Assembly: GCF_042100115.1 (NCBI RefSeq)
Contig: NC_091275.1
Span: 62,001 to 126,000 of the forward strand
Origin: Alternaria dauci
Taxonomy: Eukaryota; Ascomycota; Dothideomycetes; Pleosporales; Pleosporaceae
Direction of reading: 5' to 3'
DNA: 64,000 nt
Shown: in pieces, positions 1 to 64,000 of the stretch
Layout of the letters: each line of letters opens with the position of its first letter
How positions within the stretch are numbered: the first letter of the stretch is position 1
The notes under the pieces: model-generated
What the model was told of the DNA's origin: nothing
The model's database searches: none
What the model saw: only the letters and a program-made list of their open reading frames with translations
Position numbers and translations under genes: made by a program

Positions 1-82
1 CGACGCTCGCCGCAACACCACCCACCCACCACGTACCGCAGCATCGTCAACCTGCATACACCTTCTACCACGGGTGACTAGG

Positions 83-3000
83 ATGGACGATAACACGCAG
101 TCACCCGCCCATCCACCGGCAGGCGACCCCAGCTCCCTTAGCTACTCGGGGAACCAAACAGAGATCTTCCGCGGCTTCGGCATCGACGACGCCACCAGAC
201 AAAAGGAGATAGCCAGGACGATTGACAAGATTCTTGTGGACAACTACCCCGATGCACGCAATCGAGGTGCAGCAAAGCTCAGCGACACTGCCAATGAAGA
301 CCTGAACAAGAACCTACACGCCCTGGTCTGGAAGTCCGTACCCGACTTCCGCAACGAACCCAAGGCGTGGAGGACAATGGCGATTAGCAAGTTGATCACA
401 CATTCTCTCAATCGCCTGAGGAAGCGTAAAGCGGAAGGCGACCATGCTAAAGCCCCAACCCCCAACCCCTTGACGGCAACCTCTACACTCCAAAAGCGCG
501 AGTTATCGCCAGAATCAACGCACAACTCCAAAGACCACCCACCTAAGCGCTCTCGATCCAGAACCGTTCCTACAGGATTCACGCCTACTCCGAACAACGA
601 CAAGCCTGCTAATCCTCCCATGCCAACCGCTTCAAATCTCGACACACAGGTACATATATGCGCCGTAAAGGATGGAGAGATCAGCGAAGTAGTCAGCATG
701 GTCGAATTCAGTGACATATGTTGGGAGGGCATCCCCAACTGGGAAAAACTACGCGACGAAGCTGAGCAATGCTACGAAACTGCGCAAGGCCTAGGACTCG
801 ATGGATTCGACTTCAAGGGCCGCTTGTTTATCGCTCCAAGAGCAAATCAGCATATCGGAATTGGAAGCCAAGGTGGATTCAACTTTGCTATGCGAGAAAT
901 CCCAGCTGGCACAGCCGTAGTGTTTGTCACGACGGTTAGATTGAACGTAACCGACACGCAAGTTGCCTCCTCCAAAGTCGTCCCGCCAGCAGAGGTGCAA
1001 GATGGTCAGCAACAAGATGCCACCCACATGCAAGTTGCCTCCTCCGAGCCCGCCCCGCCAGCAGAGGTGCAAGGTGACCAGCAACAAGATGCCACCCACA
1101 TGCAAGTTGCCTCCTCCGAGCCCGCCCCGCCAGCAGAGGTGCAAGATGGTCAGCAACAAGATGCCACCCACATGCAAGTTGCCTCCTCCGAGCCCGCCCC
1201 GCCAGCAGAGGTGCAAGGTGACCAGCAACAAGATGCCACCCACATGCAAGTTGCCTCCTCCGAGCCCGCCCCGCCAGCAGAGGTGCAAGATGGTCAGCAA
1301 CAAGATGCCACCCACATGCAAGTTGCCTCCTCCGAGCCCGCCCCGCCAGCAGAGGTGCAAGGTGACCAGCAACAAGATGCCACCCACATGCAAGTTGCCT
1401 CCTCCGAAGCCGTCCCACCGGAAAGTAAGGAGCTTACACCCAAGACACTCAAGGAGATACTAGATTTGGCGGCCAACATACATCCATTATCCTGGTCGAG
1501 GGAAGAATCCACACCTAGCAACAGCGCACACAAGCAGCATCCTGTAGGTCCGTTCTCGTCATACATGTCCAGGAATAACAGCATCGCCTTCCCCCGCACA
1601 CTTCAACCCTCGTCGTTCACACCCGTGAATCTGCTACCGCTCGCCAGACCTGCCAAACCACCGTCCAGCGCACCTAAGTCCTTTCTCAAGTTTGTCGAGA
1701 CCTTCCCTTCTAATAGCTACCACGGTAGCGGACTAGACGACCCAATACATATCAGCGACGATAGTGGTAGCAGCGATTCTAGTGACAGCGAGTCTAGTAA
1801 CAACATGGACATTCTCGTAGACGATGAAGAGGTGCTAGAAGAATGCATGTTAGACGAAGGCGAACCGGAACAACCCCCATTGAACGAACAAGCTAAGACC
1901 CAGGCAAACGCGCATTTCTCGAGCACTATGAAGGTGAAGATGGATGGTATGTCTGCTTTTGCGCACGCGCAAAAGTCGAACATAGACTTGTGGGACTTAG
2001 CCGCGCAAACCTTCGGCCTTGCGCTCGACGACCTCAAAGGCGACCAGATCAACCTCGGAACTGGGGTCGGCTTAAACCCAGATTTCCACCCGCTACCCCA
2101 TCAGTTGGTCGGCGCCAAGGATGGCTTGGATGTCCTCGCCGGCGACCGAGGAGCACTTGTCATCGCCGACGACATGGGCATGGGCAAGACGATCACCGAT
2201 GTCCTCATATGGTATCTCAATTTTGCTAGATCGTACCAGCGCCTCGGCATCAGCGCGACGCCAGACTTCCCCTACACTGCTCTCAAATCGAACGGAGACG
2301 AGATAGAGACGCCGAATCTGTTTGGATGCACCTACTTTGTTGCGAGTGCAGCAGGCCTTGAAACATTGGTACAAGCATGGCGTATGATCATGGGTGGCAG
2401 CGCCCACTTGGCTCAAGGATCAGAGTACAAGCCACCGAAGCTGATAGTCTTGCACGGTACGGGCGAAGAGATTGTACAGCGTTATGGCGGTGCGAAGAAC
2501 AGCATCTACTCTAGCATGACACCAAAAGAGTGGGATGAAGTCAACCGTCGCCCTAACTGGTTGAAATCACGATTGGCCTATGGGGAGTACAACAAGGTGT
2601 GGAAGTTGAACAACCCGACTAAGGAATGGGCAAACAGCGTCCCTGAGACATCGGACTTCAGACCTCAAAAGACGAGCGTTAGGTTCTTGATAGTCTCAAC
2701 TCGCGAGTCTTGGAAGACGAAGATCTTTGGCACGCTTGTCGATACCTCTGCGCCCCCTCAGTACAAGAGGCTAAAACAACAGTTAGAAAAGACCGACAAG
2801 AGGCATACTAAGAAGAGGGCGGCGTTGAGAGCACAGCTGAGCCTGTGCGCCAAGACGCATATGGACACTTCACGATTGCCTGCGCTTGATGGTCTCGGCC
2901 CTTGGCAGGCTCGTCGCATGCAAATATGGACAGACGACAAAGGTGTGAGGGTCGAGGTGTGGTTGGTCACATTCGTTGGTTGCGCTGCAATAATCATGGT

Positions 3001-4444
3001 CGACGAGCTGCATACCGCCCCGGGTACAAAAACTCAAACCTACACCCACATCATCGACCCCATTTTGGACTACAGGCCCAATGATCATCGTACTGGTATA
3101 GTAGGTCAGACGGGCACAGCTCTCACGAACGGGGTCGACCTGGTGTTAGGATTCGCCGACCACGTGATCCAGCGGTTAGTACAAAAGCAGTCCACCGATC
3201 CAGGCGCCAAAGCTTTAGCCAATTTGAAAGGGGTAGATTGTACTGCAGTGTGGAGAAAGCTCCTCAATAGCTACAAGAAGTATCACGACGGGATGCAGCG
3301 TTGTAAAACCGAGAAGGAAAAGAACAAAGTACAGTCCGCGCTCGACAAGCAACTCCAGTCCGGCGAGATCAAGGACATGCTGAACAATTTTCGGGACATG
3401 GTTCGGTGGTGTTTCATAATGCGCGACACCGACAGTCTGGATCCCTGGCGCAAACCCCTCAACGTTGTCACAGCAAAGCTTACTGTCAACTTCACGTATC
3501 TGCAGCACGATGCGTGTTACTTCGCTAACGTGGAACAAGAAGAGTCTCGCGTGCTAGCCGCGGTCAAACAGCATTACGAGAAGGAAGTGGAGGCCTGGGA
3601 AGACCAAGGGGGAGAGAGCAGCAAGAAGTCCAAGCCCACCATGCCCCCAGGCGCAGTCGCAGACTCCGAGGCCTACCGCATTGCGCGACATGTCAGCATC
3701 TTTCCTAACCTTATGGCCGCAATCAACAATTGGGATGCCGACCAGCTTATCGGAGATCGGATCCTCGACCCTCACCGCAGTCTCAGTAATAACAACGAAA
3801 ACCTCCGCACAGCTCTTGTGAACAGCGACACAATTCGACACTCATTCATCTGGGACATTGCATTGGAGGCTTGCAAGGGCTCAGCCAAGGTCGCATACAT
3901 TCACAAGACGTTGGAAGAGCTACGCAACAAGAAGACGACCATTCCCCATCCCCGTCCTCGCGCACACCAAGGAGAAACCCTAGAGTACAGAGCCAAGTAC
4001 GTCGTACTCGCGAGCTCGACATTGTCACGTGCTCTGATCTACGCTTACATCTGCCAAACGTTTGGAGAGAAACACGTTGTTCATGCCTACAACGCCGTGA
4101 CACGGGACAAGGAAGTACCCAAGTGGAAGAAGGTCTGGGATGAGGGGGGCGGCAAGGTCGACGATGGCGTCTATATTCTCGTGGGTGCAACGGGCGCGAT
4201 GTGTCAGTCAATATCGCTTACAGAGGGCAACATCTTGCATGGTCTTGAGCCTCAGAGTAACGCGCATATTGCTGAACAGGCTGCGAAACGCCAACATCGC
4301 ATTAATACGAGGTTCGCCGAAGTCTTCGTTGAATGGCTGACAACTACTGCCCCTCAAGGATGCCGAGACACCATTGACATGAGGATAGTCAAGAACCTCC
4401 AAGCTAAAGGCTATTTTCAGAGCACGATAAAGGCGCAAGACTGA
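83..4444 (+). CDS. Gene A copy 1: SNF2-type helicase/ATPase, 1453 aa
   Basis: Superfamily 2 helicase of SNF2 type, presumably nuclear and acting on chromatin or DNA. Visible motifs: motif I DDMGMGKT (T703), DELH as motif II at 974-977, TGTALTN as motif III at 1010-1016, GATGAMCQS as a motif V-like block, and EQAAKRQHRIN as motif VI from 1398 with R1403 and R1406. The N-terminal 290 residues are unrecognised; then come six 24-residue repeats (294-437), then a Ser/Asp-rich stretch PIHISDDSGSSDSS (from 554) resembling a SUMO-interacting motif. No intron is needed. The ATG at 83 is chosen for its A at -3 and G at +4; the frame is open further upstream in copies 2 and 3, but that stretch looks like promoter. 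The SNF2 assignment is from motifs; subfamily and substrate are unknown. Confidence 0.85.
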   Translation: MDDNTQSPAHPPAGDPSSLSYSGNQTEIFRGFGIDDATRQKEIARTIDKILVDNYPDARNRGAAKLSDTANEDLNKNLHALVWKSVPDFRNEPKAWRTMAISKLITHSLNRLRKRKAEGDHAKAPTPNPLTATSTLQKRELSPESTHNSKDHPPKRSRSRTVPTGFTPTPNNDKPANPPMPTASNLDTQVHICAVKDGEISEVVSMVEFSDICWEGIPNWEKLRDEAEQCYETAQGLGLDGFDFKGRLFIAPRANQHIGIGSQGGFNFAMREIPAGTAVVFVTTVRLNVTDTQVASSKVVPPAEVQDGQQQDATHMQVASSEPAPPAEVQGDQQQDATHMQVASSEPAPPAEVQDGQQQDATHMQVASSEPAPPAEVQGDQQQDATHMQVASSEPAPPAEVQDGQQQDATHMQVASSEPAPPAEVQGDQQQDATHMQVASSEAVPPESKELTPKTLKEILDLAANIHPLSWSREESTPSNSAHKQHPVGPFSSYMSRNNSIAFPRTLQPSSFTPVNLLPLARPAKPPSSAPKSFLKFVETFPSNSYHGSGLDDPIHISDDSGSSDSSDSESSNNMDILVDDEEVLEECMLDEGEPEQPPLNEQAKTQANAHFSSTMKVKMDGMSAFAHAQKSNIDLWDLAAQTFGLALDDLKGDQINLGTGVGLNPDFHPLPHQLVGAKDGLDVLAGDRGALVIADDMGMGKTITDVLIWYLNFARSYQRLGISATPDFPYTALKSNGDEIETPNLFGCTYFVASAAGLETLVQAWRMIMGGSAHLAQGSEYKPPKLIVLHGTGEEIVQRYGGAKNSIYSSMTPKEWDEVNRRPNWLKSRLAYGEYNKVWKLNNPTKEWANSVPETSDFRPQKTSVRFLIVSTRESWKTKIFGTLVDTSAPPQYKRLKQQLEKTDKRHTKKRAALRAQLSLCAKTHMDTSRLPALDGLGPWQARRMQIWTDDKGVRVEVWLVTFVGCAAIIMVDELHTAPGTKTQTYTHIIDPILDYRPNDHRTGIVGQTGTALTNGVDLVLGFADHVIQRLVQKQSTDPGAKALANLKGVDCTAVWRKLLNSYKKYHDGMQRCKTEKEKNKVQSALDKQLQSGEIKDMLNNFRDMVRWCFIMRDTDSLDPWRKPLNVVTAKLTVNFTYLQHDACYFANVEQEESRVLAAVKQHYEKEVEAWEDQGGESSKKSKPTMPPGAVADSEAYRIARHVSIFPNLMAAINNWDADQLIGDRILDPHRSLSNNNENLRTALVNSDTIRHSFIWDIALEACKGSAKVAYIHKTLEELRNKKTTIPHPRPRAHQGETLEYRAKYVVLASSTLSRALIYAYICQTFGEKHVVHAYNAVTRDKEVPKWKKVWDEGGGKVDDGVYILVGATGAMCQSISLTEGNILHGLEPQSNAHIAEQAAKRQHRINTRFAEVFVEWLTTTAPQGCRDTIDMRIVKNLQAKGYFQSTIKAQD
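962..1393 (+). repeat. 72-bp coding repeats in gene A, six units
   Basis: Six 24-residue units inside gene A, each VASSEPAPPAEVQ followed by DG or GD and then QQQDATHMQ. The DG and GD versions alternate strictly, so the true repeating block is 144 bp. Copy 3 has exactly one more 144-bp block. All reading frames across the array are open, which produces spurious antisense ORFs. Confidence 0.95.
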
Positions 4445-4756
4445 GATACTTTGAAGGAATGACTGCCCGGAAATCGCGGAGACATACTGTAACTTTCTCA
4501 AGTAGTCTGTAGTACAAAATCGATCCCATGACTCAATACCGATATAGGCGCACCAGACTAACATAGAGTAACGCTGTACGTATTGCCTACTGCTGCCACT
4601 GTAGGAAGCCTAGAAAGTTGCCTCTGTTAGCAATAGCAAGTTACTGCTGTACCTAGGTAACGTTGTGAGTGGAAGCGCTGCTGTCAGCCTGACTTGCGGG
4701 CGCGTGGTCTTCCGAGTCAGGCCGAATGCAACCTACCACACTAAATACTACTCCAT
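4445..4756. other. 3' flank of gene A
   Basis: About 310 bases between the gene A stop and the 68-bp array. I see no open frame of note and no RNA gene; it probably holds the gene A 3' untranslated region. Confidence 0.5.
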
Positions 4757-5170
4757 GCTTCGCAACCGCTTCGCAATGTGCCCTCGCTAGCAACCAACCG
4801 TTGCGGCAACTTGCGTCCCAAGCCATATCGCAACCGCTTCGCAACGTGCCCTCGCTAGCAACCAACCGTTGCGGCAACTTGCGTCCCAAGCCATATCGCA
4901 ACCGCTTCGCAACGTGCCCTCGCTAGCAACCAACCGTTGCGGCAACTTGCGTCCCAAGCCATATCGCAACCGCTTCGCAACGTGCCCTCGCTAGCAACCA
5001 ACCGTTGCGGCAACTTGCGTCCCAAGCCATATCGCAACCGCTTCGCAACGTGCCCTCGCTAGCAACCAACCGTTGCGGCAACTTGCGTCCCAAGCCATAT
5101 CGCAACCGCTTCGCAACGTGCCCTCGCTAGCAACCAACCGTTGCGGCAACTTGCTTCCCAAGCCATATCG
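4757..5170. repeat. 68-bp minisatellite, six units
   Basis: Six tandem 68-bp units, each containing CCCTCGCTAGCAACCAACCG, then TTGCGGCAACTTGCG and CCCAAGCCATATCG. The first unit has an AATGTG variant and the last has CTTGCTTCCC. The core GCAACTTGC is palindromic except for its centre base. A seventh, isolated and diverged unit lies at 6136-6197 beyond the inserted element. Sixty-eight is not a multiple of three and nothing suggests coding. Confidence 0.95.
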
Positions 5171-5219
5171 TGATCTAATGACATAGTTTTGTACGACGGC
5201 TTACGCCGAAAAGTCAGAC

Positions 5220-5640
5220 ATGGATGCGATACAGGCTCTAGCTGCAGCCTATAGGGTATATAAGCTCTCGGCGGTACAGCCACCTACTGCACTGAAATAC
5301 GAGCTAGACCAGGGACAGGACTTCAACAAGAATGCGATTCGGAACACGGTGCTGTGCAACACCAAGGCGTTTGCAGATTCCAATGAAGCGAATCTACCAA
5401 AGCGAGAATCGGAGACTGAACAGCAGCATCACGACAGGATTGCACGCCGCATTTCAGGAGAATCAAACTAGGGCGATCGACTCGTTCGTGGAAGATCTGA
5501 GGAACCAGTGGCCAAGGCAGAGTCCCAGCGTGCCGTCCAGGACTGAGTATACTGCCTACCTCGACGTTTTCTCTACAGCGACAACCATTAGGAATCAGTT
5601 TGTTCATTGGTTCAACAACCGTCTGTTCATGCAGCAGACT
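5220..5640 (+). pseudogene. Gene B copy 1: broken gene interrupted by an inverted-repeat element
   Basis: Two overlapping frames look like one protein split by a frameshift. The first begins MDAIQALAAAYRVYKLS at 5220 and stops at 5471. The second becomes protein-like from about 5450 (AAFQENQTRAIDSFVEDL, then RNQWPRQSPSVP and HWFNNRLFMQQ) and runs into the inserted element at 5641. There is no GT donor at the switch, so a frameshift is more likely than an intron. The QWP...P...Y plus WFNNR pattern reminds me of fungal proteins linked to RecQ-like helicases, from memory only. The identical lesion in all three units shows it predates amplification. Confidence 0.5.
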
Positions 5641-6051
5641 TGTCAACAATCAAGCCAGCTTGATCGCTATCAAGCTGGGGCATCAAGCTGGCGTATCAAT
5701 CAAGCTAAGCTAGAGTAGAGGTATAAATCAATTAAGCCAAGCTACTATAAGCTAGCTTGATTGTTTGGCTTGATTGGCTTGATAGAATTAATACTCTATA
5801 AAGAAGGTTAAAGTAAGTAAGTAAGGTCACGTGGTGATAAGATCACGTGGTGATAAGATTATATAAGGATACCCCTACACTATCCCCTTTTAAGCTTCTT
5901 GAAAGGGGGATTAATTTTGTTAAGCTAATCAAGCTAAACAAGCCAAGCTTATTAATTTTAACCATCAAGCCAATCAAGCTAAGCTGAGGTAGAGGTACCC
6001 ACTAATCAAGCTAAGCTGGGGCACCCAGCTTGATTGGCTTGATTGTTGACA
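5641..6051. mobile_element. MITE-like element, 411 bp, 16-bp terminal inverted repeats
   Basis: The left end TGTCAACAATCAAGCC is matched in reverse complement by the right end GGCTTGATTGTTGACA. Both sides are flanked by ACT (5638-5640 and 6052-6054), a likely 3-bp target duplication. Inside are many CAAGCTAAGCT/TTGATTGGCTTGAT subterminal repeats and two copies of TCACGTGGTGATAAGA. There is no coding capacity, so it is a non-autonomous DNA transposon. A 3-bp duplication fits PIF/Harbinger- or CACTA-like families, but the ends do not identify one. Confidence 0.75.
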
Positions 6052-6054
6052 ACT

Positions 6055-6642
6055 CTGTCATGCAGTACCTTGGACAGTCCAGAGAGTTGCCCAAAAGGTG
6101 TTAGTAGGTGTATGAAGCCATACCGTGGTCTCTGCGTAACTTGCCCTCGCTGGCAACCAACCGTTGCGGCAACTTGCGTCCCAAGCCATATCGCAACCTT
6201 GCAGCTGGAACATTCGGACGCTTTAACTACCTTAGGGCTGGCGCTCCAACCTTCTTCACGCTGCACCTCTAAAGGCAAATACTAGTGTTATATTATTTGG
6301 AACTGCGCTCTTAGATGTACGAGGCAGAGCGACCCTCCCTATCTAGGACTACCTCTTTGAGATCTTTCGTGTCTTCAACAACTAAACTTTAGTATTCAAT
6401 ATTATATAAGAATAGCACTCTAAAAAGAGAAATAACATGTATTCTACACTCAAGGACGCGACCTCTTCTGGGATTAGGGACCGTACTCTACCTTGTTAGT
6501 CGGTGCGACTATATGCCGCACCTTGCCGGCACGCCCTGGCCCCCTGCTTTCCATGCCACGTCTTCTTTTCTCTGCTGTTATTCTTACTACTTTTCTACCC
6601 ACACACTAATCGCTGGCTTAGAGCGTCAGCCTTGGTTCTAAA
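6055..6642. promoter_or_regulatory. Interval with isolated 68-bp unit and upstream region of gene C
   Basis: Holds one diverged 68-bp unit at 6136-6197, an AT-rich patch near 6365-6440, and a pyrimidine-rich tract at about 6555-6600 just upstream of the gene C start. The CT-rich stretch is typical of fungal promoters. No TATA box is clear. Confidence 0.45.
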
Positions 6643-8633
6643 ATGGATCAGTTACAGCTCGATAGTGACCATTGTCAGGATAAACACAGCGGAAGAGGCT
6701 TTCCTGCACAGTGGGACGCTACAGTCGCTAACAACTTAGCATACAGCCCACCTAACCCGTCCTACAGCAGATTTCTTGCGCGTCGTCTCGCAGAACCATG
6801 CCGTGTACCAGGCGATGTACGATACGCGGGATGGATCGTTCCAGAAGTAGGCGACGACGAAGCGTGCAAGCCGGTTTTCATAGCCCACTCGACACTAGAT
6901 GCGATATGGCTGCTGAAAGAGACGCTGGGTGCCAGCACACTTGACGCAGAAAATTGGGGGCGTCTCACAAGCGCTGCTATGGACTTTGCTAGTAGTAAGT
7001 CTCTAGAGCCTAGAAACTTAACTACAGCGCGGCTAATGACGCCAACGGAAGGCATCGCGGAGGACCGCATGGCTATAGACTCAGACAAGGACGATAGCAT
7101 ACCGCCATCAGCACAGAGGGCTACAGGCGACCTTGTGCCGTACCGTAAACGTCCAGCCTCCTCATCGCCTATTCGCAGCGAGATCCGTGCCAACAGCTTA
7201 AACCGCCTAGCAATACAGGAGGACAGCGCGGACGAATCGACGGCTAGGGCTAGCGAAGTCAACACTATGACAGTACACGCTGGCAAAGACACAGCTAGAG
7301 CGGAGGGGGGACACGAGCGCGGAACAAGCGACGAGGACAGCGAAAACCAGAGTGCGACGACGCCTCTATCCGTAAAGAGGTCCGCAACAGTTACAAACAA
7401 GAATCGTCTTGCAGAGCTACGGCGTACAAGAAAGCTAGAAAGATCGCGTGTAATAAAGCTCGAGGCGATAGGCTTAAAGGAACCGCCTGAGAAGATGCCT
7501 GCGCAGGAACGTATGGCGTACGGCAGCATTGCGCCAGACGATGAGCCGACGATCTCTTGGATCTTCAAGCAAAAAGTCGCGGAAGATGCTGATTTCTATA
7601 CAGCCTCGCCAACACCCTACTATACTGCCTGCAGCATGCTAGCAAAAGCGCGTGCTTTTGGAAATGCAACCTCGCAGTACAGCGCTGCGCAGTTCCTGCA
7701 TAATTGGCGGAAACAGGGCACGCCGTTCTTGGTAAAACCAGTAGATCGTTATGTTCTTACCCAGACGCAAATGTCGCAGTCAGTGGATAGTAGCGCAACA
7801 CTTCATACTGATGCCGACAATGCATTCTGCTTTGCCTGGGACATGTGCACACGGTACGAGACGATGCTTGCAGCTGTAAACATTGGCACTCGCTGGGCTT
7901 TCGCTTTGCTAGGGAAGGCGTACGCTCGCAAGGTCGACGAAATCCAGGTCGCTGATCGTCTAGCCAGTAACGACAGAACTCGCAACAGGTACGGGAAGGG
8001 CCAGGCACGAACAGAGGCTATCACATATTTGGTCCATCTGGTTTGCCAATCACCATCTAAATCTGACCACGCAGCCTTTCGTTACCGCCTAAAGCGAGCG
8101 ACACGATGGTTCGACATAGTTCAAGCTCTAGGCTGGGGATCGCTGCTGCTCATACCCCACGAAGAGGTCTCAAACCATTGGCTCGAGCGTGTGCTGCGGA
8201 AGAACCAGCGCGATGTTTTTCTTGAGCTAGTGAAGCGCGAACGGCCGGAAATTTGCACGGCAAGCAGGGCCCTCGAAGCCTGGCTAGGGCCGGATGGAAT
8301 TACTGGTGCGCCGATTGCTGGAAAGGAGAGGCTTAGCATTGAAGCGAATGCGCTAGCTACGGCGGTGGGGTTAACAGAGATTCCAGACAGCGAAGCCGAA
8401 GATGACACTGATTCTGACGCATCGGAAAGTATCCCGGCATCGCCGGCGCCATTGCGACAGATGTCGGTACTTGAATTATTCTGTCCTGTAAGCCCTATAG
8501 GTTGAACAATAAACCGGGTTACCTGACGACCCTGAACTATGCGCTGCGGAAAAAGAGTGATGGGCTCGAAGAGCACAATGCTGAGCTTCTAGCGACACTC
8601 TACGGAAGTAGTGAGGTAGACGAGAGTTGCTAG
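6643..8633 (+). CDS. Gene C copy 1: unknown protein, about 640 aa, probable two exons
   Basis: I do not recognise the family. The main frame runs 6643-8507. The N-terminal ~115 residues look folded (RYAGWIVPEVGDDEACKPVF). A low-complexity acidic/Ser-rich linker follows (~130-250), then a basic stretch RLAELRRTRKLERSRVIKLE and a Trp/Tyr-rich helical C-terminal part. The main frame stops soon after a good GTAAGC donor at 8488. Removing 8488-8555 (68 nt, CTGAC/CTGAAC branch candidates, AAAAAG acceptor) joins in phase to SDGLEEHNAELLATLYG and a stop at 8631-8633. The sequence before that acceptor also reads protein-like in the same frame, so the boundary is uncertain. The ATG at 6643 has A at -3 and G at +4. 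Nuclear location is a guess from basic clusters. Confidence 0.7.
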
Positions 8634-9273
8634 TCATAGCGGTGCTTATTAGCAGGTGGGGTGTATGCGTCCGTGTTGCGGAAGCTTGCCAATTTAGTGT
8701 TAGGCTAGGTCTGTCGTCTAAGTCACCGGCTGTACCGTGGCTCTCGACGATTACAGCCTGCTAGGAAGCTGCTGTCGTATTGCGATACAGATAAGTCAAC
8801 AACACCGCAGGCTACAAATCTACAAATAACTACAAAGAAGAGCGAAACACATAGCGGCTTCCTCTCTTTTCCTTAAAGGTTGCCGCGCAAGGTGCTATTA
8901 CCTTTGCCTGCGGAGAATAGTAACAGGATGCCTCTACACTGTGCTACTTCAGCCACTAATGCAATGTAGACTTCGCAGGCTCTATTCTCTAGTGCCTGCG
9001 TCTTTTTACTATTACGTTAATTATGTAAATAGTAGAGAAGAGACACAGTTAAGATTAAGAAACGGATTACATGCGACAACGATAGTACGGTTAATATTGG
9101 GGTTGGTGTTTTTCTGAATTTACAGTTAATACGAAATATTTTAAAAAATCATAACACTACGTAACGTGTATTAATCTCTTCAAAAGCTGTATAGGATAGA
9201 AGATGTATATAGTATATACGTGTTTTATAGGAGAGAAGATGTAAAATTATAGTGGAAGCTATAATAGCTTACT
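8634..9273. other. Convergent 3' interval between genes C and E
   Basis: About 640 bases between the ends of two convergent genes. It is moderately AT-rich around 9000-9250 but, unlike the spacer at 17.5-19.6 kb, keeps CA and TG dinucleotides. A loose inverted pair TACTATTAC/GTAAATAGTA lies near 9007-9034. No gene or RNA is seen. Confidence 0.5.
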
Positions 9274-12200
9274 CTACACTGGGGACTCCTGTATAATAGT
9301 ATGACATCGGTCAACCCATGCATAATCAGAACTACCAAACACGCATTGAATAAAACCTTTAGCATCGCTCCGTAGTCGCATTAACTCTGTACGTCTCTTC
9401 TCAAGAACGGAATCATAGTTGATCGCTATGTCGCTGTTCCTTGGGGAGTCTCGACGCCCACTAGTAACCCGAATCCATTGCAGTTGTCGAAGGAAGCGGT
9501 TGTTGCAACCTTTGTGCTCTACCCCAGATAGTACTATGTTAGCAATGCTTCTTACTTGGGAAAAGGGCCTCTCTTAGGGAAGTCTTACCAATCTTCTTCG
9601 TCATCTCCCGTACCGAAAGCACCCAACCATCGTCTTCCTCCGACGGGAAGTAATCTGGTCGAAGAGACCAGAGCATTCTTGTTACCAAGGCGGCCGCAAA
9701 CATTTCAGAGTTCTTGGTTGGTCCTTTGGAAAACTCAGTCGCATTCACCGCTACAGTAGGGGTAGCTGAAGAGGATGCAAGGGTTAACACCAACATGAGC
9801 ATTAGATCGCATTTTGGCTGACCTAAGCACTCGATGAGGCACTGACGTGCTCTGTGGTAGTGTTCACGAACCTTCTGATTCATGCCGGACTTTGAGAACT
9901 GGCCGTCCAACTGCTGAAAACCTTTTTCAACTAGCGGCGGGATGGCGTTAAAAGGGATTTGGCAACCAAAGTCGATAGTACTCTTTGTTTGCGAGCGCCG
10001 CTTTGCTTGGTGTACTGCCTCAATCGCTGCCCGCTTGAGGCTGCCCGGTCTCGCCGCTATAGCGGATGGGGCCGGAACGTTACCGACTAGCCGCGTCATT
10101 CTCCGGTAGCTCAATCGGCCATGGTATGAACCAGGCACACAGTCAATGCGGCACGCCGCTAGAGCTGACATTATGGCGCTGATCCAGTATTCCTCCTTCA
10201 TCGCCTTGGCCCTGGCGTGTTGCACGGCAGCGCGTAACACAGTGAACCAGCTCGCGTTCTTTGAAAAGAGGTAGCTACTAGATTGGCCATGGCTGTTAAC
10301 ACACTCCCAGTAGAGCTCTTGCGCAAAGTCGCGTCGCGTCTGGCTTCTCAAACCCGAAGTCGCTTCTGGATAAAAGACAGGAAAGATCGACTCGTACTCC
10401 CTGTACTGTGTTAGCGGCTGATATTTGAAACGCTAATTGCACGAACCCTGCAGAGAAGGGGTGCTCGCTTTCAGCCCAACGCGTCACCTGCTCTTGCGCC
10501 TCCTGTCGTGCCTGCAGTGTTGTTAGGCTTACGCTTTGAGCATTGCCCCGTCCGCCCTTGTTCAGAGCGCGATAGAATTGGTGTGTTACGAAAGCGATTG
10601 TCTGCGGCTTCCACATCTCTTCGAGCACCTCTACTAGGAACTCTTCTGCGCCACGAGGCCCTTTACCTGTGAGCCCACCAAGCTCACGGAACCATACCTC
10701 GCTGTGACAATAAGCGGCAACCTGGGGCCCATAGTGGTGGCGAATGGAAGCAACGTGCATCATAATAGGTCGTCCATTGTCCATGCGCGGCCAACGCACT
10801 AGGTTAGCATGGCCACTGCCTTGCAGATTGAGCATGTTGGGGTCGATAAACGGCCACCCACCCTGCTCAATGCTTTCTATGGTGCAGAGAGGCCCGAGCA
10901 CTGAGCCCACTAAAGACCGGGGGAACCCAGTAAAGCAGTAGCTGCCAAGGCGATCGAATGCGGCCACACCTTCCGCTAGGGCAAAAGGCAGCCCTTTAGA
11001 GCCAGCAGCCTTGAAGCGACGATAAAACTCGTCTGATGCGTGCGCGAACAGACTAGCAAAGGAGGAGAGAACCTTTGGAAAGATGCGTTCTTTGAACGCG
11101 AAGAGGACATCAATGTAGGTAGGTTGTTCCAGCGAGAAGTACCGGATTAGCTGGAGGATAGGTTGAAGCACTGTCGCAAAATTCCGTTGACCGTCAGCTA
11201 ACTGCGACACCTGCACAGACAGAACTTGCTCCATCCTAAACGCGTACAGTTCTTCCTTTATAGCGGCTTTAATCCGCTGTTGCTCGCGAGCGAACGGTTG
11301 GGAAGACGTAGGGTTATCAGGAGTCTGTTCGCCTCGCAATTTCCGCAGTAAACGCTGCCGCTTCGCCGCTACCCGAGGGTTTAGGTTGCCATCCTGATCT
11401 GGCAGCGTCAGGGCAGCCGTGGCAATGCCCTTGGTAGCAAGTAAGTTGCCGGGGCTATGGCGTATAGTTCGCTTAATGTTGGAGTACGCCTGAAAATAAC
11501 CACTAGTCAACACGCTCGCACCGTTGTTCTGATAGCTCATGTTGTCCTCCATTACAGCGAGCACGTTGTCGCGTAGGAATGCTGGGGGCTGCGCGGAGGA
11601 GAAGTTGCCGTACGATGGATGGAAGGCAAGAGGGTAGAAGGTAAAGTCGCGCGGGTGTTGGTATTGGCGAACAACGTTGTTGCGATTGGCAAGGAGGCAG
11701 CGCGCAGGTGCGAGAATGACACCGACGTCATTAGAGGCGTTAGGGAGGTTGGAAGATGCTATTGAGTGGATGTCGACCGCTAGCGCGTAGGAGACCGTCT
11801 CAATGCTCTCCAGTCTATACTTGTCCTCTAGTGCGCGTAGAAGATCCTGTGTGTAGTTATCAAACGGCTGTTGATGGTCGTGCGGCGGGGGAATTGGATC
11901 GCCTGTTTGTGTACCGCTCTGTGGGGGCGTAGCCCCCTCTGCGCCGCCTTCGGACCTAGCCGCCGCGTCTTCAGAGTTAGATAAATCATTCTGAGAGTTT
12001 GGTAAATCATTCCCAGAGTTTGACAAATCATTCCCAGAATCAGACGTCTCGCTATCAGAGTCAGACGTCTCGTCATCAGAGTCAGACGTCTCGTCATCAG
12101 AGTCAGACGTCTCGTCATCAGGGCGCAACCGGGTTTCCTTAGGCAGACTATTGAGTTGCTCAGTAGACAACTCAATTGGAAGGTTCTGCCCGTAGTCATA

Positions 12201-13149
12201 CGCATGGAACGCTGGCAGGTTCTCAGTCCAGAACGGATCCTGCGTGTTCTTGCGCACGTACTCTGGCCACCCTTCCATGAACTGCTCCTGGAACGTTTCC
12301 CACTTGACGATTGAGATCGATTGCGACTGGGGTCCATCCAATTTCCAAGAAGCCTCAACACCCTCTCCAAGTAATACGCCTGTAAGGAAGACTTTCTTAA
12401 TGTACGACGTAAGGAACAGGGCATGGGAGGGTTTGAGAGCGCTGTGCTCAGACGCCTTCTCGCGGCGTTTGCGACGTTCGCTGCCTGACAGAAGAGGGTC
12501 TACTGTGCTATCGACAGGGTGCATAACAATAAACCAAGATTCGCGCGTTCCACCCTTTGCAAGACGGAAGGTACGATGCTCCATATCAAACGACAGTCCG
12601 TGGCTGTGTTTAGCGCTGTATGGAGCTCGCCAGTGTTTAAAGCTGATTGTTACGTGGTCGAAGAACGTAGAGAACTTCACAATGGGTTGGAGCGGCCGGC
12701 CGATGATAATGATAAGGTCGAGGTGGAACTCAGGGATAAATTTGTCCTCAGGCTTGGCTGGTCGGGACCCAACGCGCCTCGATCCGTAGTCTATCGTGTA
12801 TCGCTTCTGCAGCATTCCAATAGCCTTACTGCCGTTAAATTCGGGGCTGTCTATCATCTTGATAAATCCCTTCACTACTACGTAGTTACTATATGCGTAC
12901 AAGTAGGATGCTCTTAAACTCACCAGGTAGTCGGTGGTCACCTCCGCTGTGGTCAATAGCCCAGGTAAGTTGATTATTCGCTATTGCGTCTTCGTCCCCA
13001 AGGCTGCTCTCGTGGTATTCTTCTCCATCATGCTCGTCAGGTTCTCTATCGTGCTCATCAGGTTGCACATCTTGGTACAGGCCGTCCTCCTCTCCAGCAC
13101 TGCTGTTATCGTAATCGCTATCGTTTTGTTGTGCAAGATCTAAAGACAT
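9274..13149 (-). CDS. Gene E copy 1: four-exon gene for an unknown 1239-aa protein
   Basis: Inferred exons: 13149-12924, 12877-10488, 10432-9589, 9533-9274. Intron 1 (46 nt, GTGAGT...TAACTACGTAG), intron 2 (55 nt, GTGACG...ATTAG) and intron 3 (55 nt, GTAAGA...GCTAACATAG) all join in frame, and the total is 3720 nt. Intron 2 could instead use a GTAAGC donor upstream or an ACACAG acceptor downstream, also in frame. The protein starts MSLDLAQQND with an acidic first 60 residues; a hydrophobic block LDLIIIIGRPLQPIV lies near 128-142, DDETSDS repeats near the first third, and a long helical C-terminal half follows. I recognise no domain. The last exon (FLRQLQWIRVTSGRRDSP) is coding by frame alone. 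It lies 158 bases downstream of gene P on the same strand. Confidence 0.72.
11960..12122 (-). repeat. Acidic short repeats inside gene E
   Basis: A run of 21-bp units encoding DDETSDS, three in this copy followed by a DSETSDS variant, and then NDLSNSG/NDLPNSQ 7-residue units. Copy 2 has one extra 21-bp unit (four). The result is a flexible, strongly acidic Ser/Asp linker, a possible casein kinase 2 substrate region by composition only. Confidence 0.85.
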
Positions 13150-13307
13150 GATGATAAGAACAGTATTATATAAAATAGTACGTTGGCTAAGGGCTGAGGA
13201 TCTTGTAGGGTAGATCGATAGATGATGATCGAGAATCACAATATCCAGTGCAGAGGAAAGAGGAGAGGAACAGTGTCTATTGGGTTAGGGCTAGGGTCAG
13301 ATACGGA

Positions 13308-15575: not shown

Positions 15576-15734
15576 TGCAACGTTGTTAGAAAGAACACAG
15601 AAACTAAGGTAAGTGGAAAAGAGATAAGAGAAGGTAAGAAAGCAATAGAGAGGTACTACACAAGGTATAAGTAGGCGAGAAGCCGTCTATTCTTGCATAG
15701 GCCGCTGTAAGTCTAGCGGTGAGTGTTAGTCACT

Positions 15735-20514: not shown

Positions 20515-21068
20515 TGATATATCGTAATGTATAATACAACATACTATAGTACATATTACCAACTATTGTACCACCTATTGTACCTTACTATACTACATAT
20601 TACAGCTTTATACACCCGTATAAGTTCTACATACAGTATATTATTACTTCTCCTCCAAAATCCTCTTCTGCCTTAACTCCTCTTCTCCCCAACGTAGCCG
20701 CAACTCTCCAGAACCGCTTGAAGTTCAGGGCTTTACTTCCAACCCATCTATTGTCAAACATATACAGCTGCATACGGTGAACTCAAGGTGTTTAGGAAAC
20801 ACACCTTTACCGCGATTTATTACAGTGTCTTTCAACAGTGTTGTGCTTGCGTCTTTTACCAGCACGTTTATTATTTTGATACAGTGTATTATCACTTTAA
20901 GAGGAATAGAGTAAGCGCATAAACTCTTACTCTACTACTTCTCTTCATTACTACGTACTGGCTTTCAAAGAACAAGAAGAGATCGATATTAGCCTAGTCC
21001 CACACTATCCTACTGGGAGGCTTGTCTTCCTTGATCTCCAAATCACCTCCAGCGTCTCTAGAACCTTT
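20515..21068. other. Interval between 22-bp array and the 3' end of gene D
   Basis: About 550 bases, AT-rich at the left and with a TTGTACC-type short repeat near 20570-20585. It probably includes the gene D 3' untranslated region. No gene seen. Confidence 0.45.
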
Positions 21069-42099: not shown

Positions 42100-42258
42100 T
42101 GCAACGTTGTTAGAAAGAACACAGAAACTAAGGTAAGTGGAAAAGAGATAAGAGAAGGTAAGAAAGCAATAGAGAGGTACTACACAAGGTATAAGTAGGC
42201 GAGAAGCCGTCTATTCTTGCATAGGCCGCTGTAAGTCTAGCGGTGAGTGTTAGTCACT

Positions 42259-49400: not shown

Positions 49401-50850
49401 CGGGCGTGATGCCTGCGGACGGTTTGATCTCAAATCGCCAGGTGTCCGCTTGCTCCTGGTAGGGACTGAACTGGATGTCCACGAAGGCGCCCTCGCGGTA
49501 GCTGGCGCCCTCTGGTACCCTGAGCTCGGCGTAGTATAACCGGTCACCGCCGCCGCGAACCTTCATAATCTTGGTGTCGGTGATCTCGAAACCCTTCTGC
49601 TTGGCGGCCTTGCGCAGTTCGTGGACAAGGTTCTGGTAGTGCACGGTGACGTACTGTGTGTTGTTCTGGAATGCCCACTGGGGAGGGACCTTGAATCCTT
49701 TCGGCTGCTTGTCGACAGAGATCTCCATGCCAGTCTGAGGGTTGACACGACAGTCCTTCCAGTAGAGCAGAATCGGGTCGTTCTTGTATTGAGCTTGCAT
49801 CTCTTTGTACACGGTATCCATGCGCTCTTGTGCTGACTCTGTGGCGACCGTGAAGAAGTGCAGCACGGTGCCCTCGCCGCCATTCTCGAGGATATCGCGA
49901 GCACGATGGATGACTTCATCGAAGATCCCAAAGTTCTGGTGGGAGAAGAACCCCAATCCGTAGAGGGGGCGGGAGTTCAGAGGTTGTCCGTCAGGTTGTT
50001 CGGTTTGGAGGTCGAAGCGGAAGTGTAGGAGCATCCCTAGTTCGCTGAGTGCAAGCTTACTAGCAGCTCGCTTAACATCTTCTTGGGAAACCCTTGAGGT
50101 GAAGAACTCATCGGTGATCTTCATGGGAAGTACAGTGCAGTTGACGATGTTGTGGGCTGTCAGGGTAATGGAGGCTGCCCGATGAGCGTGGCCACGGAGG
50201 GTGATACTAGCGTCGTCGCTCGGATAGGAAATATCCATCTCTACACTAACGGAGGAGACATAGTGAGGGATCTTCCGAGTGAATAACTTTGTTGTGAAGC
50301 TAGGTTTATCCAGTGGTGGGGCCATGGTTTGGGCAGGAGGAAGCTCGTCTTTGCCATCCTTGGAGACGTCCTCCTTGGAGACGTCCTCCTTGGAGGCGTC
50401 CTCCTTAGGAGCACGAAACTTGCGGGTTTTGATCGGCTGGGGATAGAAGCAATCCGAGGCAACGTGGCCGAGACGGTTACAGCCGTTGCACCTAGGGCCC
50501 TGGTCTGCTGCTGGCTCACTAGGGCATTGCTTGGAGAGGTGCCCGTGACCACCGCAGTTGAAGCACTCGTTCGTGGGACAGTCGCGGTAGACATGGCCAA
50601 CCTCGCCGCAGTTGGAACACGCTTGCTGTTCGAGCTTCTTGGGGCAATCTTTGGCCCTGTGGCCTGGTTCTTTGCAGGTGAAGCAGGCGTGCTTCTCTCG
50701 GTCAGGGGCGTCGGGAAGGCCTCCGAGCTGGACAGAGTCTTTGCCGGGTGCCTCCAAGACAGCAATGCCCTGGTCGTAGACTTCTGTATCATGCGGCGCC
50801 GACGTCGGCCGGTCATTGACCATGTAGTGCATGACAGACTGGTCGGCCAT
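46444..50850 (-). CDS. Gene D copy 2: zinc-knuckle UPF1-like SF1 helicase, 1468 aa
   Basis: Identical to copy 1 over all 1468 residues, including the number of tail repeats. The zinc knuckles, Walker A and motifs II-VI are all intact. The start ATG is at 50850, and the likely 5' leader intron is at 50960-50901. Confidence 0.87.
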   Translation of the reverse strand: MADQSVMHYMVNDRPTSAPHDTEVYDQGIAVLEAPGKDSVQLGGLPDAPDREKHACFTCKEPGHRAKDCPKKLEQQACSNCGEVGHVYRDCPTNECFNCGGHGHLSKQCPSEPAADQGPRCNGCNRLGHVASDCFYPQPIKTRKFRAPKEDASKEDVSKEDVSKDGKDELPPAQTMAPPLDKPSFTTKLFTRKIPHYVSSVSVEMDISYPSDDASITLRGHAHRAASITLTAHNIVNCTVLPMKITDEFFTSRVSQEDVKRAASKLALSELGMLLHFRFDLQTEQPDGQPLNSRPLYGLGFFSHQNFGIFDEVIHRARDILENGGEGTVLHFFTVATESAQERMDTVYKEMQAQYKNDPILLYWKDCRVNPQTGMEISVDKQPKGFKVPPQWAFQNNTQYVTVHYQNLVHELRKAAKQKGFEITDTKIMKVRGGGDRLYYAELRVPEGASYREGAFVDIQFSPYQEQADTWRFEIKPSAGITPASYIGGFLYRPRLGASFAEQPLFKEGVHYSCAFNYRTLPEAEEALRKLRGIYVFARLNPATVGIKRQINALNHYFRGGDAFSDVTQILHNSYLRFPDDKIVDYFAGMFAYLGDNGAKDSIMERLNRSLQPDVLQKLRALAGGVALIQGPGGVGKTRIIEALAVAHYEAQQTGVIHGLGRLAAFWVTSPLNKQLDDAMLRIYTACLERRKELKAAGIQARFPIVIRRHMKETETAVVRKESEAARNVLLKNEKPPYFEYIEEEHFTKDQLKEQAAAYQEKSSEDRRTMAFLDALTVDSQFRILLETSETKSSFTDKRLQLEMLSEGAWVLRLAGVPERNADTNELVVHEIAQPKKYRDFRFQLDLYASGQEFDADDMRRLTALTNEIIRDLAQLAVAIGMTSDVISQPRTHTLEQPYAVHHDEAGKSSESSTLAPLVYTHAYNNEGPLMVERKAITPHLFFGDIHQPKPSAAGGSEERHVFSDQQDLPFFHRAMLGGCTTIYLHTQYRFNSDINALTNHILPRGRMEVAPGVDDREENIRAMEIAMEQFNISSGHRVIFVSVKGSHDIVGATKSRYNKDFIPYTLRAVCKMIAGGFSGKQVAIITPYVAQVAAIRFVLARFMEHLANQVDEEELFKLSVQLRDVEVFTVDKMQGAEKEGIVFDTTNAGDLGFVKHTTRMLLAVGRARSLLVIVGNPVSVLAEYTGATDKDKRYVKLAYYKVWKWCLDRKSAIQLHVDPELAQGWCEFNPPFNVAEHIEAFAAGSQATEEPIKMFPDANYGPLPTFSTASPVDGDGIDFYSGGDDWNRDDAKDKPNDDGVPFYSGGDDWNRDDAKDKPNDDGVPFYSGGDDWNRDDAKDKPNDDGIPFYSGGDDWNRDDAKDKPEGEDHADDGGDEAKDKPEGEDHADDGGDEAKDKPEGEDHADDGGDEAKDKPEGEDHADDGGDEAKDKPEGEDHADDDEDHAGNDEGHGGDQCSNVAHDWNQYD
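46525..47025 (-). repeat. C-terminal coding repeats of gene D copy 2
   Basis: Same 69-bp and 51-bp units as copy 1. Confidence 0.9.
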
Positions 50851-51960
50851 GCTGGACGATATGCAAAAACAGAGTTTCAACGGTAGGTGAGACTTTGTTT
50901 CTATACGGACAGCACATCGTTAGCAATCGATCAGCGGAACAGGAGGCCACAACAACTTACCGACAAGGGTCAATGGGTAGGTAGAGATATCGACGTTGAG
51001 AGTGGTTTGCTTTCAAGAGAAGCAATTCGGGGAAGGTGTCAAGTAGTTGGTGTGGAGGAAAGTGTTATTTGTGCAGGACTAGGTAGCGCGAGCGCGAGAG
51101 ACGCTAACGCCAAGCAAATTTTGCGTTGCTCACCTTGGGTTGTGCGTGAGGAAGCGAGGAGCAAGATAAAGACACGTGAAAAGAAGGATTGGATGGAGAA
51201 CGATAGGGACGCGAAGAGGATATGGGGATCACCCGAGTTCTACAAGTTGGTACCAAGAGACAGAAGTGGACAGCCAGTCGACCTTTGGGCAATAGGAAGA
51301 TAACTATCGGACCGGCCATACAAATAAGCGAGGACATGCCAAGGTGAATGGGAGATCTAGCGAGCGTCAAGGCCACAGCAATGCGCAGCGTGTAGCCGGC
51401 TACGTCTTGGCTCTCTCCTTCGCGACTACAGTTAGTCCTACGGCTGGGTGATCCCCATATCTCTTTTCGCTTTCTTTTGTTTGGTTCTATCAACTTCTAT
51501 GCTCGATTCAGTTCACGATGACGGCCAGAACTGCGTTTGGGTGATCCCCATGTCTCTCCCTACTTTCCCTGCTCCTTGTCTCTCTTCTCCCTCTGCTCGC
51601 TTTCTATACACTCGGGTGATCCCCATATCTTTTATCAACTTTCTCTGTTTCGCGCGTACGCAACGTGAGCCCGCGTCAGAGTCTTGTGCGCTGTACCCGC
51701 AATGCTCAACAGTGAGCGCTCACGCCAGAACCGGGTGGCTATACTATGCCCTACTCCTGGTCATCGTTCTACTAGGCTCAGTACGGGCGACGAGGCTAAA
51801 ATTACTGGGAGCTTCCCCTTTCACTTTTCACCGCTCTCCGGCTGTTTCCTCGCGCATGTTGCCACAACACGAACGTTGCGACGCTCGCCGCAACACCACC
51901 CACCCACCACGTACCGCAGCATCGTCAACCTGCATACACCTTCTACCACGGGTGACTAGG
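50851..51960. promoter_or_regulatory. Divergent promoter between gene D copy 2 and gene A copy 3
   Basis: Same four GGGTGATCCCCAT motifs, at 51446, 51539 and 51614 on + and at 51219-51234 inverted. It is unchanged from the preceding unit, so regulation should be shared by all copies. Confidence 0.6.
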
Positions 51961-61159: not shown

Positions 61160-64000
61160 CTACACTGGGGACTCCTGTATAATAGTATGACATCGGTCAA
61201 CCCATGCATAATCAGAACTACCAAACACGCATTGAATAAAACCTTTAGCATCGCTCCGTAGTCGCATTAACTCTGTACGTCTCTTCTCAAGAACGGAATC
61301 ATAGTTGATCGCTATGTCGCTGTTCCTTGGGGAGTCTCGACGCCCACTAGTAACCCGAATCCATTGCAGTTGTCGAAGGAAGCGGTTGTTGCAACCTTTG
61401 TGCTCTACCCCAGATAGTACTATGTTAGCAATGCTTCTTACTTGGGAAAAGGGCCTCTCTTAGGGAAGTCTTACCAATCTTCTTCGTCATCTCCCGTACC
61501 GAAAGCACCCAACCATCGTCTTCCTCCGACGGGAAGTAATCTGGTCGAAGAGACCAGAGCATTCTTGTTACCAAGGCGGCCGCAAACATTTCAGAGTTCT
61601 TGGTTGGTCCTTTGGAAAACTCAGTCGCATTCACCGCTACAGTAGGGGTAGCTGAAGAGGATGCAAGGGTTAACACCAACATGAGCATTAGATCGCATTT
61701 TGGCTGACCTAAGCACTCGATGAGGCACTGACGTGCTCTGTGGTAGTGTTCACGAACCTTCTGATTCATGCCGGACTTTGAGAACTGGCCGTCCAACTGC
61801 TGAAAACCTTTTTCAACTAGCGGCGGGATGGCGTTAAAAGGGATTTGGCAACCAAAGTCGATAGTACTCTTTGTTTGCGAGCGCCGCTTTGCTTGGTGTA
61901 CTGCCTCAATCGCTGCCCGCTTGAGGCTGCCCGGTCTCGCCGCTATAGCGGATGGGGCCGGAACGTTACCGACTAGCCGCGTCATTCTCCGGTAGCTCAA
62001 TCGGCCATGGTATGAACCAGGCACACAGTCAATGCGGCACGCCGCTAGAGCTGACATTATGGCGCTGATCCAGTATTCCTCCTTCATCGCCTTGGCCCTG
62101 GCGTGTTGCACGGCAGCGCGTAACACAGTGAACCAGCTCGCGTTCTTTGAAAAGAGGTAGCTACTAGATTGGCCATGGCTGTTAACACACTCCCAGTAGA
62201 GCTCTTGCGCAAAGTCGCGTCGCGTCTGGCTTCTCAAACCCGAAGTCGCTTCTGGATAAAAGACAGGAAAGATCGACTCGTACTCCCTGTACTGTGTTAG
62301 CGGCTGATATTTGAAACGCTAATTGCACGAACCCTGCAGAGAAGGGGTGCTCGCTTTCAGCCCAACGCGTCACCTGCTCTTGCGCCTCCTGTCGTGCCTG
62401 CAGTGTTGTTAGGCTTACGCTTTGAGCATTGCCCCGTCCGCCCTTGTTCAGAGCGCGATAGAATTGGTGTGTTACGAAAGCGATTGTCTGCGGCTTCCAC
62501 ATCTCTTCGAGCACCTCTACTAGGAACTCTTCTGCGCCACGAGGCCCTTTACCTGTGAGCCCACCAAGCTCACGGAACCATACCTCGCTGTGACAATAAG
62601 CGGCAACCTGGGGCCCATAGTGGTGGCGAATGGAAGCAACGTGCATCATAATAGGTCGTCCATTGTCCATGCGCGGCCAACGCACTAGGTTAGCATGGCC
62701 ACTGCCTTGCAGATTGAGCATGTTGGGGTCGATAAACGGCCACCCACCCTGCTCAATGCTTTCTATGGTGCAGAGAGGCCCGAGCACTGAGCCCACTAAA
62801 GACCGGGGGAACCCAGTAAAGCAGTAGCTGCCAAGGCGATCGAATGCGGCCACACCTTCCGCTAGGGCAAAAGGCAGCCCTTTAGAGCCAGCAGCCTTGA
62901 AGCGACGATAAAACTCGTCTGATGCGTGCGCGAACAGACTAGCAAAGGAGGAGAGAACCTTTGGAAAGATGCGTTCTTTGAACGCGAAGAGGACATCAAT
63001 GTAGGTAGGTTGTTCCAGCGAGAAGTACCGGATTAGCTGGAGGATAGGTTGAAGCACTGTCGCAAAATTCCGTTGACCGTCAGCTAACTGCGACACCTGC
63101 ACAGACAGAACTTGCTCCATCCTAAACGCGTACAGTTCTTCCTTTATAGCGGCTTTAATCCGCTGTTGCTCGCGAGCGAACGGTTGGGAAGACGTAGGGT
63201 TATCAGGAGTCTGTTCGCCTCGCAATTTCCGCAGTAAACGCTGCCGCTTCGCCGCTACCCGAGGGTTTAGGTTGCCATCCTGATCTGGCAGCGTCAGGGC
63301 AGCCGTGGCAATGCCCTTGGTAGCAAGTAAGTTGCCGGGGCTATGGCGTATAGTTCGCTTAATGTTGGAGTACGCCTGAAAATAACCACTAGTCAACACG
63401 CTCGCACCGTTGTTCTGATAGCTCATGTTGTCCTCCATTACAGCGAGCACGTTGTCGCGTAGGAATGCTGGGGGCTGCGCGGAGGAGAAGTTGCCGTACG
63501 ATGGATGGAAGGCAAGAGGGTAGAAGGTAAAGTCGCGCGGGTGTTGGTATTGGCGAACAACGTTGTTGCGATTGGCAAGGAGGCAGCGCGCAGGTGCGAG
63601 AATGACACCGACGTCATTAGAGGCGTTAGGGAGGTTGGAAGATGCTATTGAGTGGATGTCGACCGCTAGCGCGTAGGAGACCGTCTCAATGCTCTCCAGT
63701 CTATACTTGTCCTCTAGTGCGCGTAGAAGATCCTGTGTGTAGTTATCAAACGGCTGTTGATGGTCGTGCGGCGGGGGAATTGGATCGCCTGTTTGTGTAC
63801 CGCTCTGTGGGGGCGTAGCCCCCTCTGCGCCGCCTTCGGACCTAGCCGCCGCGTCTTCAGAGTTAGATAAATCATTCTGAGAGTTTGGTAAATCATTCCC
63901 AGAGTTTGACAAATCATTCCTAGAATCAGACGTCTCGCTATCAGAGTCAGACGTCTCGTCATCAGAGTCAGACGTCTCGTCATCAGAGTCAGACGTCTCG
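61160..64000 (-). CDS. Gene E copy 3: unknown protein, 5' part outside the window
   Basis: Exons 4 (61419-61160), 3 (62318-61475) and most of 2 (from 62374 to the window edge) are present. The window ends within the DDETSDS repeats, so at least three units can be counted. It shares the T at 63921 with copy 2 (the Gly-to-Arg change), which groups copies 2 and 3 together at this site. Confidence 0.7.

Follow-up and report, generated by a model that had tools for sequence, protein, structure and literature searches.

The window analysed here is a 64,000-base stretch of Alternaria dauci DNA (C4:62001-126000, with the telomere 62 kb to the left of its start) built from head-to-tail copies of a 25 kb-class multigene unit. 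We propose, with a probability of about 0.6, that this unit is a giant telomere-capping mobile element whose mechanism we infer. The unit has two defined ends, its full copies are terminal and uniformly oriented, and its inner end is joined with base precision to many different sequences. Copies were counted in one assembly of the 34.9 Mb genome, comprising 10 chromosome-sized contigs (C1 to C10, L and R denoting their left and right ends).

The unit was found at 19 of the 20 contig ends, the twentieth (C7R) being rDNA, and full copies were located only at chromosome ends. The genome contains 34 full copies of the gene g2, plus two fragments where contigs end, and all 34 full copies share one orientation relative to the nearer contig end. 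Six of these stand at C4L, four each at C1R and C3R, three at C8R, two each at C2R and C5R, and one at each of the nine other left ends and at C4R, C6R, C9R and C10R; C7R has none. Similarly, a 1,001-base piece of g1 is matched 34 times at 100% in the genome, and g4 and g6 have 36 full-length matches each. The number of 34 units is a lower bound, since the right ends of C2, C5, and C6 fall inside a unit. The sequence-only reading of the window had described a giant tandem array. The array is real in the assembly but not primarily local: because a single full unit stands at 12 of these ends (at a thirteenth, C6R, one full unit is accompanied by another that the contig end truncates), the array is a by-product of a telomere-adjacent unit.

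A genome search for the inner end with a 28-base pattern ending in CTCTATAGTAT, allowing up to two mismatches, returned 40 matches, of which 25 are exact, 12 carry one shared two-base variant and three others lie inward of intact units. Chromosome-side joints were read in letters at 18 ends (10 left and 8 right, C5R being the one unread of 19). At all 18 the unit stops exactly at ...CTCTATAGTA and different DNA follows. The flanks represent 17 unrelated sites. The sole clear pair, C2L and C8R, differs by four transitions and five extra bases at C2L, while the next best of the 153 flank pairs exceeds its shuffles by one point. The base after the inner end is T in 18 of 18 cases (T makes up 36.5% of flank bases), the following base is A in 11 of 18, and three flanks start with TTAGG (C3L, C6R, and C8L). 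Comparing the flanks with the unit in a three-letter alphabet that allows for repeat-induced point mutation (RIP) gave only noise. At C2L (C2:27570-27650) and C10R (C10:1946690-1946768), the inner terminus is followed by an additional TAGTA, like a stutter of the joining step. All four ends read far enough have a lone CTAACCCTA at a distance of 29 bases inward from the inner end of the unit. A ribozyme or other structured end was considered and rejected, the only match being a sub-threshold snoRNA (E 0.77), and no strong fold being seen.

As 17 unrelated flanks are joined at the same base, local tandem amplification alone is insufficient. The same joints bear on spread by recombination only, as for yeast Y', in which break-induced replication and gene conversion would copy whole ends and the precise inner joints would be old and merely preserved. 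The layout agrees with such a process: the unit occupies the telomere side, forms tandem copies and carries helicase genes, as Y' does. The near identity of the copies and the mosaic of variants along the C4L array also favor it. However, homology-driven copying does not start 17 unrelated flanks at the same base. In addition, two inner-end sequences cover 37 of the 40 matches while the C2L and C8R flanks are four RIP-type transitions apart, a sign that the joints arose later than the flanks. We therefore consider spread by recombination alone unlikely, since it explains the homogeneity and the recurring junctions but not the unrelated flanks cut at the same base.

The outer end is also defined. 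From the telomere inward, the order is (CCCTAA)n, CGGTTACAG, the 18-mer array, the AT-rich block, the 22-mers, and g7. The exact 29-base pattern of the telomere joint occurs at 16 sites at 13 ends (twice at C3L and three times at C6L) and, in the genome search, at none of the array-internal unit starts. At C5L and C10R, the joint is present with an indel in the telomere repeat. Overall, CGGTTACAG touches telomere repeats at 15 of the 16 readable element-bearing ends, C2R, C5R, and C6R being not judgeable; the exception is C2L, where six bases of the joint are missing. At C3L (C3:1-400) and C6L (C6:1-700), short cassettes recur between telomere tracts, each with telomere sequence, CGGTTACAG and a small number of 18-mers.

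The window itself contains the following parts of the array.

1 to 17629: inner part of the telomere-side neighbor unit, recognized from exact blocks; its 21-mer stretch and 34-mer tail differ in length
17603 to 17629, forward strand: inner terminus CTAGTTATACTGTTTACCTCTATAGTA, joined to the 18-mer array; the same sequence stands at other inner ends
17630 to 43564: complete unit of 25,935 bp, from the outer part (18-mers, AT block, 22-mers) to the inner terminus, telomere side on the left; delimited by offset matches and junction reads
17630 to 18071, forward strand: 18-mer array TATTTAGGGCTTCTTAGT, which touches the telomere in terminal units
18072 to 19506: AT-rich block, 14.6% GC, with extreme RIP-type dinucleotide bias
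19507 to 20513, forward strand: 22/44-mer minisatellite
31263 to 31673, forward strand: 68-mer minisatellite outside the named genes
42250 to 43521, forward strand: 34-mer minisatellite ahead of the inner terminus
43538 to 43564, forward strand: inner terminus closing the complete unit, in a variant form that differs at three bases, joined straight into the AT-rich block of the next unit
43565 to 64000: outer part of the centromere-side next unit, starting within the AT-rich block, without 18-mers
43565 to 44881: AT-rich block of this next unit, outer bases missing, with RIP-type bias

Shared 32-mers recur with offsets of 26,503, 25,375, and 25,383 bases, and the longest exact blocks span 12,034 bases (1-12034 against +26503) and 8,900 bases (19011-27910 against +25375); a further one, in the telomere-side partial unit, covers 12225-15888 against +26524. 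These data bear out the head-to-tail multigene repeat and the near base identity between units claimed by the sequence-only reading, and its view that such identity points to recent spread or homogenization holds. Its three consecutive units do lie in the same orientation, but only one is complete, both neighbors being cut by the window ends; likewise, its five intact genes per unit stand as far as the long frames go, but two of the genes (g4, through introns, and g5/6) extend over several frames. The repeat numbers differ as it had reported: the 72-mer is present in 6.4 versus 8.4 copies, the 68-mer in 6.0 versus 4.0, and the 18-mer array stands at one unit junction and is missing at the other. 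We agree with its use of these differences as an argument against a duplicated assembly piece. It was also right that the unit has no rRNA gene: the window gave no tRNA and no Rfam match at gathering score, while the same Rfam search does detect the rDNA at the right end of C7. An rDNA or RNA-gene array was thus rejected. Inside long frames, the minisatellite periods (72, 51, 69, 21, 78, and 15 bases) are all multiples of three; outside them, the main periods of 68, 34, and 22 are not, and those of 18 and 24 are. Two degenerate telomere-like 18-mers, each with three mismatches, lie at window positions 13279-13296 and 39803-39820, between g4 and g5/6 of the two units covering that place.

By position, the arrays contain 17 tandem junctions. 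Sixteen were examined, the third junction of C3R being the one unread, and all run directly from an inner end into the next unit. Nine of the 17 join the 18-mer array in one phase (seven exactly, two with one mismatch). Six others use point b (once, C2R), point c (four times, twice each at C3R and C5R) or point d (once, C8R), and the window junction from the inner end into the AT-rich block uses point e, a joint that matches once in the genome. All five join points lie within the outer 2 kb of the 25 kb next unit, where the native unit reads TA then T at four and A then T at the fifth. As a fixed inner end is joined to several points of the outer 2 kb of the next unit, the tandem junctions are precise on one side and variable on the other. 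Two inner ends lie only 114 bases apart at C4L and 236 bases apart at C9R, as if an earlier unit had almost completely disappeared by the time the next was added. Repeated terminal addition, of the kind known from HeT-A or Terminons, fits these junctions better than simple tandem duplication does. The ninefold 18-mer join in one phase speaks for spread by recombination alone.

A fixed inner end, a variable acceptor, a fixed orientation, and a terminal position lead us to favor terminal addition. New units would be laid onto exposed or eroded chromosome ends. An end with TAT (or AT) at the join would accept the inner terminus CTCTATAGTA through a 2–3 base overlap, and the unit would then be completed, by copying or ligation, as far as its fixed outer end CGGTTACAG, where telomerase or an accompanying telomere tract would cap it. 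Repeated addition to a unit-bearing end after loss of up to about 2 kb would produce head-to-tail arrays, and unequal exchange among ends would spread and homogenize variants. The two helicase-type proteins might drive copying of the long template, and g4 and g5/6 are, as a guess, the best candidates for proteins that recognize or cut the inner end. Copying could be RNA-primed, with an enzyme supplied from elsewhere, or could equally follow a DNA route.

Several observations weigh against this interpretation. No reverse transcriptase, transposase, integrase, tyrosine recombinase, or other mobility enzyme was found in the long frames scanned. No inverted repeat between the inner and outer ends scores better than shuffles, and terminal inverted repeats were rejected on this basis; the fold of the inner end is not clearly above shuffles either (z -0.4 to -1.6). 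The complete unit of the window has three mismatches to the inner-end pattern and so falls outside the 40 matches, indicating more inner-end variety than the two main sequences. Because two joins recur, the one to the 18-mers nine times and join c four times (at C3R and C5R), part of the array growth was probably by recombination. The constant telomere joint could stem from inheritance by copying of whole ends. Finally, the comparison is based on one assembly of a single strain of one species.

Two other explanations would account for some of these points. A linear plasmid or viral genome with a telomere tail, joined to broken ends by ligation at microhomologies, would leave integrated copies with one telomeric end, one fixed end, 2–3 base overlaps, several genes, and no recognized mobility enzyme, as found here. 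We regard such a linear replicon as quite improbable: all copies found belong to the 10 chromosome-sized contigs, the frames scanned contain no recognized gene for replication, a capsid, or a polymerase, and short peptide patterns of g1, g2, g4, and g7 retrieved no IMG/VR relatives. A viral origin was rejected on the last result. An assembly artefact that placed one or a few units on many ends is very improbable. It would agree with contigs C2, C5, and C6 stopping inside a unit at the right, with C3R and C4R continuing past the telomere into mitochondrial and other DNA, and with C9L opening with an inverted unit piece. Nevertheless, each end read has its own flank, junction types and minisatellite counts vary, and telomeres are in place.

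The irregular ends can be described as follows. About 120 kb extend past the right telomere of C3 (C3:3325300-3445196), with a cox3-like frame under the mold mitochondrial code recognized by eye at the far end, which suggests that mitochondrial DNA was joined to this chromosome end in the assembly. At C4R, about 20 kb of other DNA lies beyond the right telomere tract (C4:3421500-3442401), so that there is a misjoin here or the telomere is interstitial. The first bases of C9 are an inverted piece of the unit (34-mers and g6; C9:1-1747), outside the telomere joint at 3224. The oddities of C3R, C4R, and C9L look like misjoins and show that the chromosome ends were difficult to assemble. C7 has 177 bases of other DNA (C7:1-177) outside its telomere.

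Variation among copies is low. The 4,860 bases around g2, compared in 30 of the 34 copies, fall into four sequence types defined by three variable sites, all C/T, although assembly polishing may have hidden or created small differences between copies. These types are spread over chromosomes and mixed within the C4L array. The g4 frame 36802-39504 carries one or two TAG stops in 7 of 36 full-length matches, and g7 has stops in 5 of the 32 copies scored. Relics of g6 with 55% and 54% identity and 18 and 8 stops lie further in on C8L and C3R, respectively, and inner-end matches are found beyond them (C8:50941 and C3:3193722). A 39-residue fragment 59% identical to g4 was observed at C5:2795912-2796028, about 75 kb inside the innermost C5R unit. 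The AT-rich blocks show TA/AT ratios of 1.65 (measured over 18072-19500) and 1.68, with (CA+TG)/(AC+GT) at 0.00 and 0.01. The unit genes have no RIP bias (composite index -0.56 to 0.17), and the index is also raised at 35100-36000 (0.62) and in the 34-mer array (1.89, a repeat). As the AT blocks are biased and the genes are not, RIP-like mutation has probably acted on older layers and on one block now traveling in the unit, and hardly on the present genes.

The genes of the complete unit are the following.

21069 to 25505, reverse strand: g7, about 1,478 aa, with three CCHC zinc knuckles and a predicted UPF1/SEN1-type superfamily 1 helicase; next copy at 46444-50880
26073 to 30947, forward strand: g1, up to 1,624 aa, putative SWI2/SNF2-like ATPase with an in-frame 72-bp repeat
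33146 to 35008, forward strand: g2, 620 aa, no recognized domain
36045 to 39808, reverse strand: g4, three exons, more than 1,070 aa, family widespread in fungi
39835 to 42210, reverse strand: g5/6, frames 41551-42210, 41061-41561, and 39835-41136, with a likely intron and frame break

In its second copy, g7 matches the Pfam families AAA_12 (3.5e-27) and zf-CCHC (1.5e-18), and also AAA_11 and AAA_16; against UPF1 chains, it scores 6e-10. The g1 frames differ between copies by multiples of 24 residues (1580, 1604, 1628, and 1676). This gene has no Pfam match; its profile matches are PHROG 62 DNA helicase (9.5e-8) and, weakly, a ZorD SNF2 model (8.8e-4). Together with the motifs DDMGMGKT and DELH, these weak matches mark g1 as an SNF2-like ATPase. 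Defense-system profiles match g7, and weakly g1, only as generic helicases. Homologue searches with g7 and g1 gave no hit among 8,000 scored candidates each, probably owing to the word filter, and we do not take this as evidence that homologues are lacking. Profile scans of the long frames gave no accepted domain for g2, g4, or g5/6. The N-terminal frame of g5/6 looks ParB-like by eye. For g6, DUF3723 (PF12520) was rejected: it scores 13.6 bits against a cut-off of 22 (E 0.027), and the genome scan places DUF3723 elsewhere, its four matches being all on C5. Stop-ridden DUF3723 relics were seen at C5:154239-155535, 192064-192414, and 239729-240079.

The protein of g4 corresponds to A. dauci ACET3X_004695, and the public gene model P0001 splices its introns likewise. 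Of 7,999 candidates scored, 153 are homologues at E<=1e-3; those named among the 120 matches listed include Pyrenochaeta, Fusarium, Metarhizium, and Pochonia. Because of these homologues and of the 74 invariant columns in the 44 rows of alignment A1, g4 is, judged from its sequence, a conserved gene of an old family and not a chance frame. In the tree, the window copy is grouped with P0015 (Pyrenochaeta). A search for relatives of g4 with a solved structure found none.

More tentatively, the unit may be a self-mobile DNA element of about 26 kb that caps telomeres by joining its fixed inner terminus to eroded ends, encodes no reverse transcriptase itself, and combines an SNF2-like ATPase and a UPF1-type helicase with new families (g4 and kin) common to fungi. 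Chromosome-tip elements known so far are mostly retroelements or recombining Y'-type repeats. If confirmed, this element would add to the known ways of occupying chromosome ends, and perhaps of maintaining them, and would give a plant pathogen a large and rapidly moving pool of DNA at its chromosome tips. The precise joins make its mechanism directly testable. None of the titles and abstract openings listed in our literature search describes a multigene telomeric unit of 25 kb, either from Alternaria or from any other fungus; as most subscription journals and bioRxiv were outside its coverage, novelty is not proven.

Like Starships, the unit is a giant multigene fungal element. Proteins with DUF3435 and DUF3723 are reported to serve the Voyager Starship (PMC10128009). 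The unit is terminal and not interstitial, the DUF3435 tyrosine recombinase that Starships have near one end did not appear in Pfam scans of its long frames, and DUF3723 is sub-threshold. With TLH, FoTeR, and MoTeR, it shares a telomeric, tandem, minisatellite-rich organization in a fungus; no profile of the RecQ-type helicase that characterizes TLH was among the matches in the scanned frames. FoTeR and MoTeR sit in telomere repeats, and FoTeR elements measure 4.3–7.3 kb, with truncated copies in the majority (PMC12857005, PMC8381367). In contrast, the inner joins of the unit lie in unrelated or AT-rich DNA, and no reverse transcriptase was recognized in it.

As in the telomeric retroelements MoTeR, FoTeR, Terminon, and HeT-A, the attached end is fixed and the next unit is joined at a variably shortened outer end. 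No reverse transcriptase profile was found in the long frames scanned; HeT-A itself is not known to encode this enzyme. Terminons reach 40 kb, are multigenic and stand head to tail at telomeres with a fixed inner end; they encode a Penelope-type reverse transcriptase, have telomere repeats at the attached end as well as a hammerhead motif, and most of them are truncated (PMC6431247). None of these last four features was found in the unit, which has only the lone CTAACCCTA near its inner end.

The Y' elements of Saccharomyces are subtelomeric repeats with a similar layout. They have one orientation, are single or tandem, carry a helicase gene, and typically have telomere repeats between tandem copies. 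They are reported at 17 of 32 telomeres (PMC11042809). The unit likewise lies directly next to the telomere, in the same orientation, at many ends. Unlike in Y', no telomere tract separates the tandem units examined, the window containing only the two degenerate 18-base matches mentioned above, at no junction. In place of the Y' helicase, the unit encodes, judged from profile matches and motifs, predicted UPF1-type and SNF2-type proteins. Finally, the unit is about four times larger than Y', has five genes, and ends inward with base precision on unrelated flanks.

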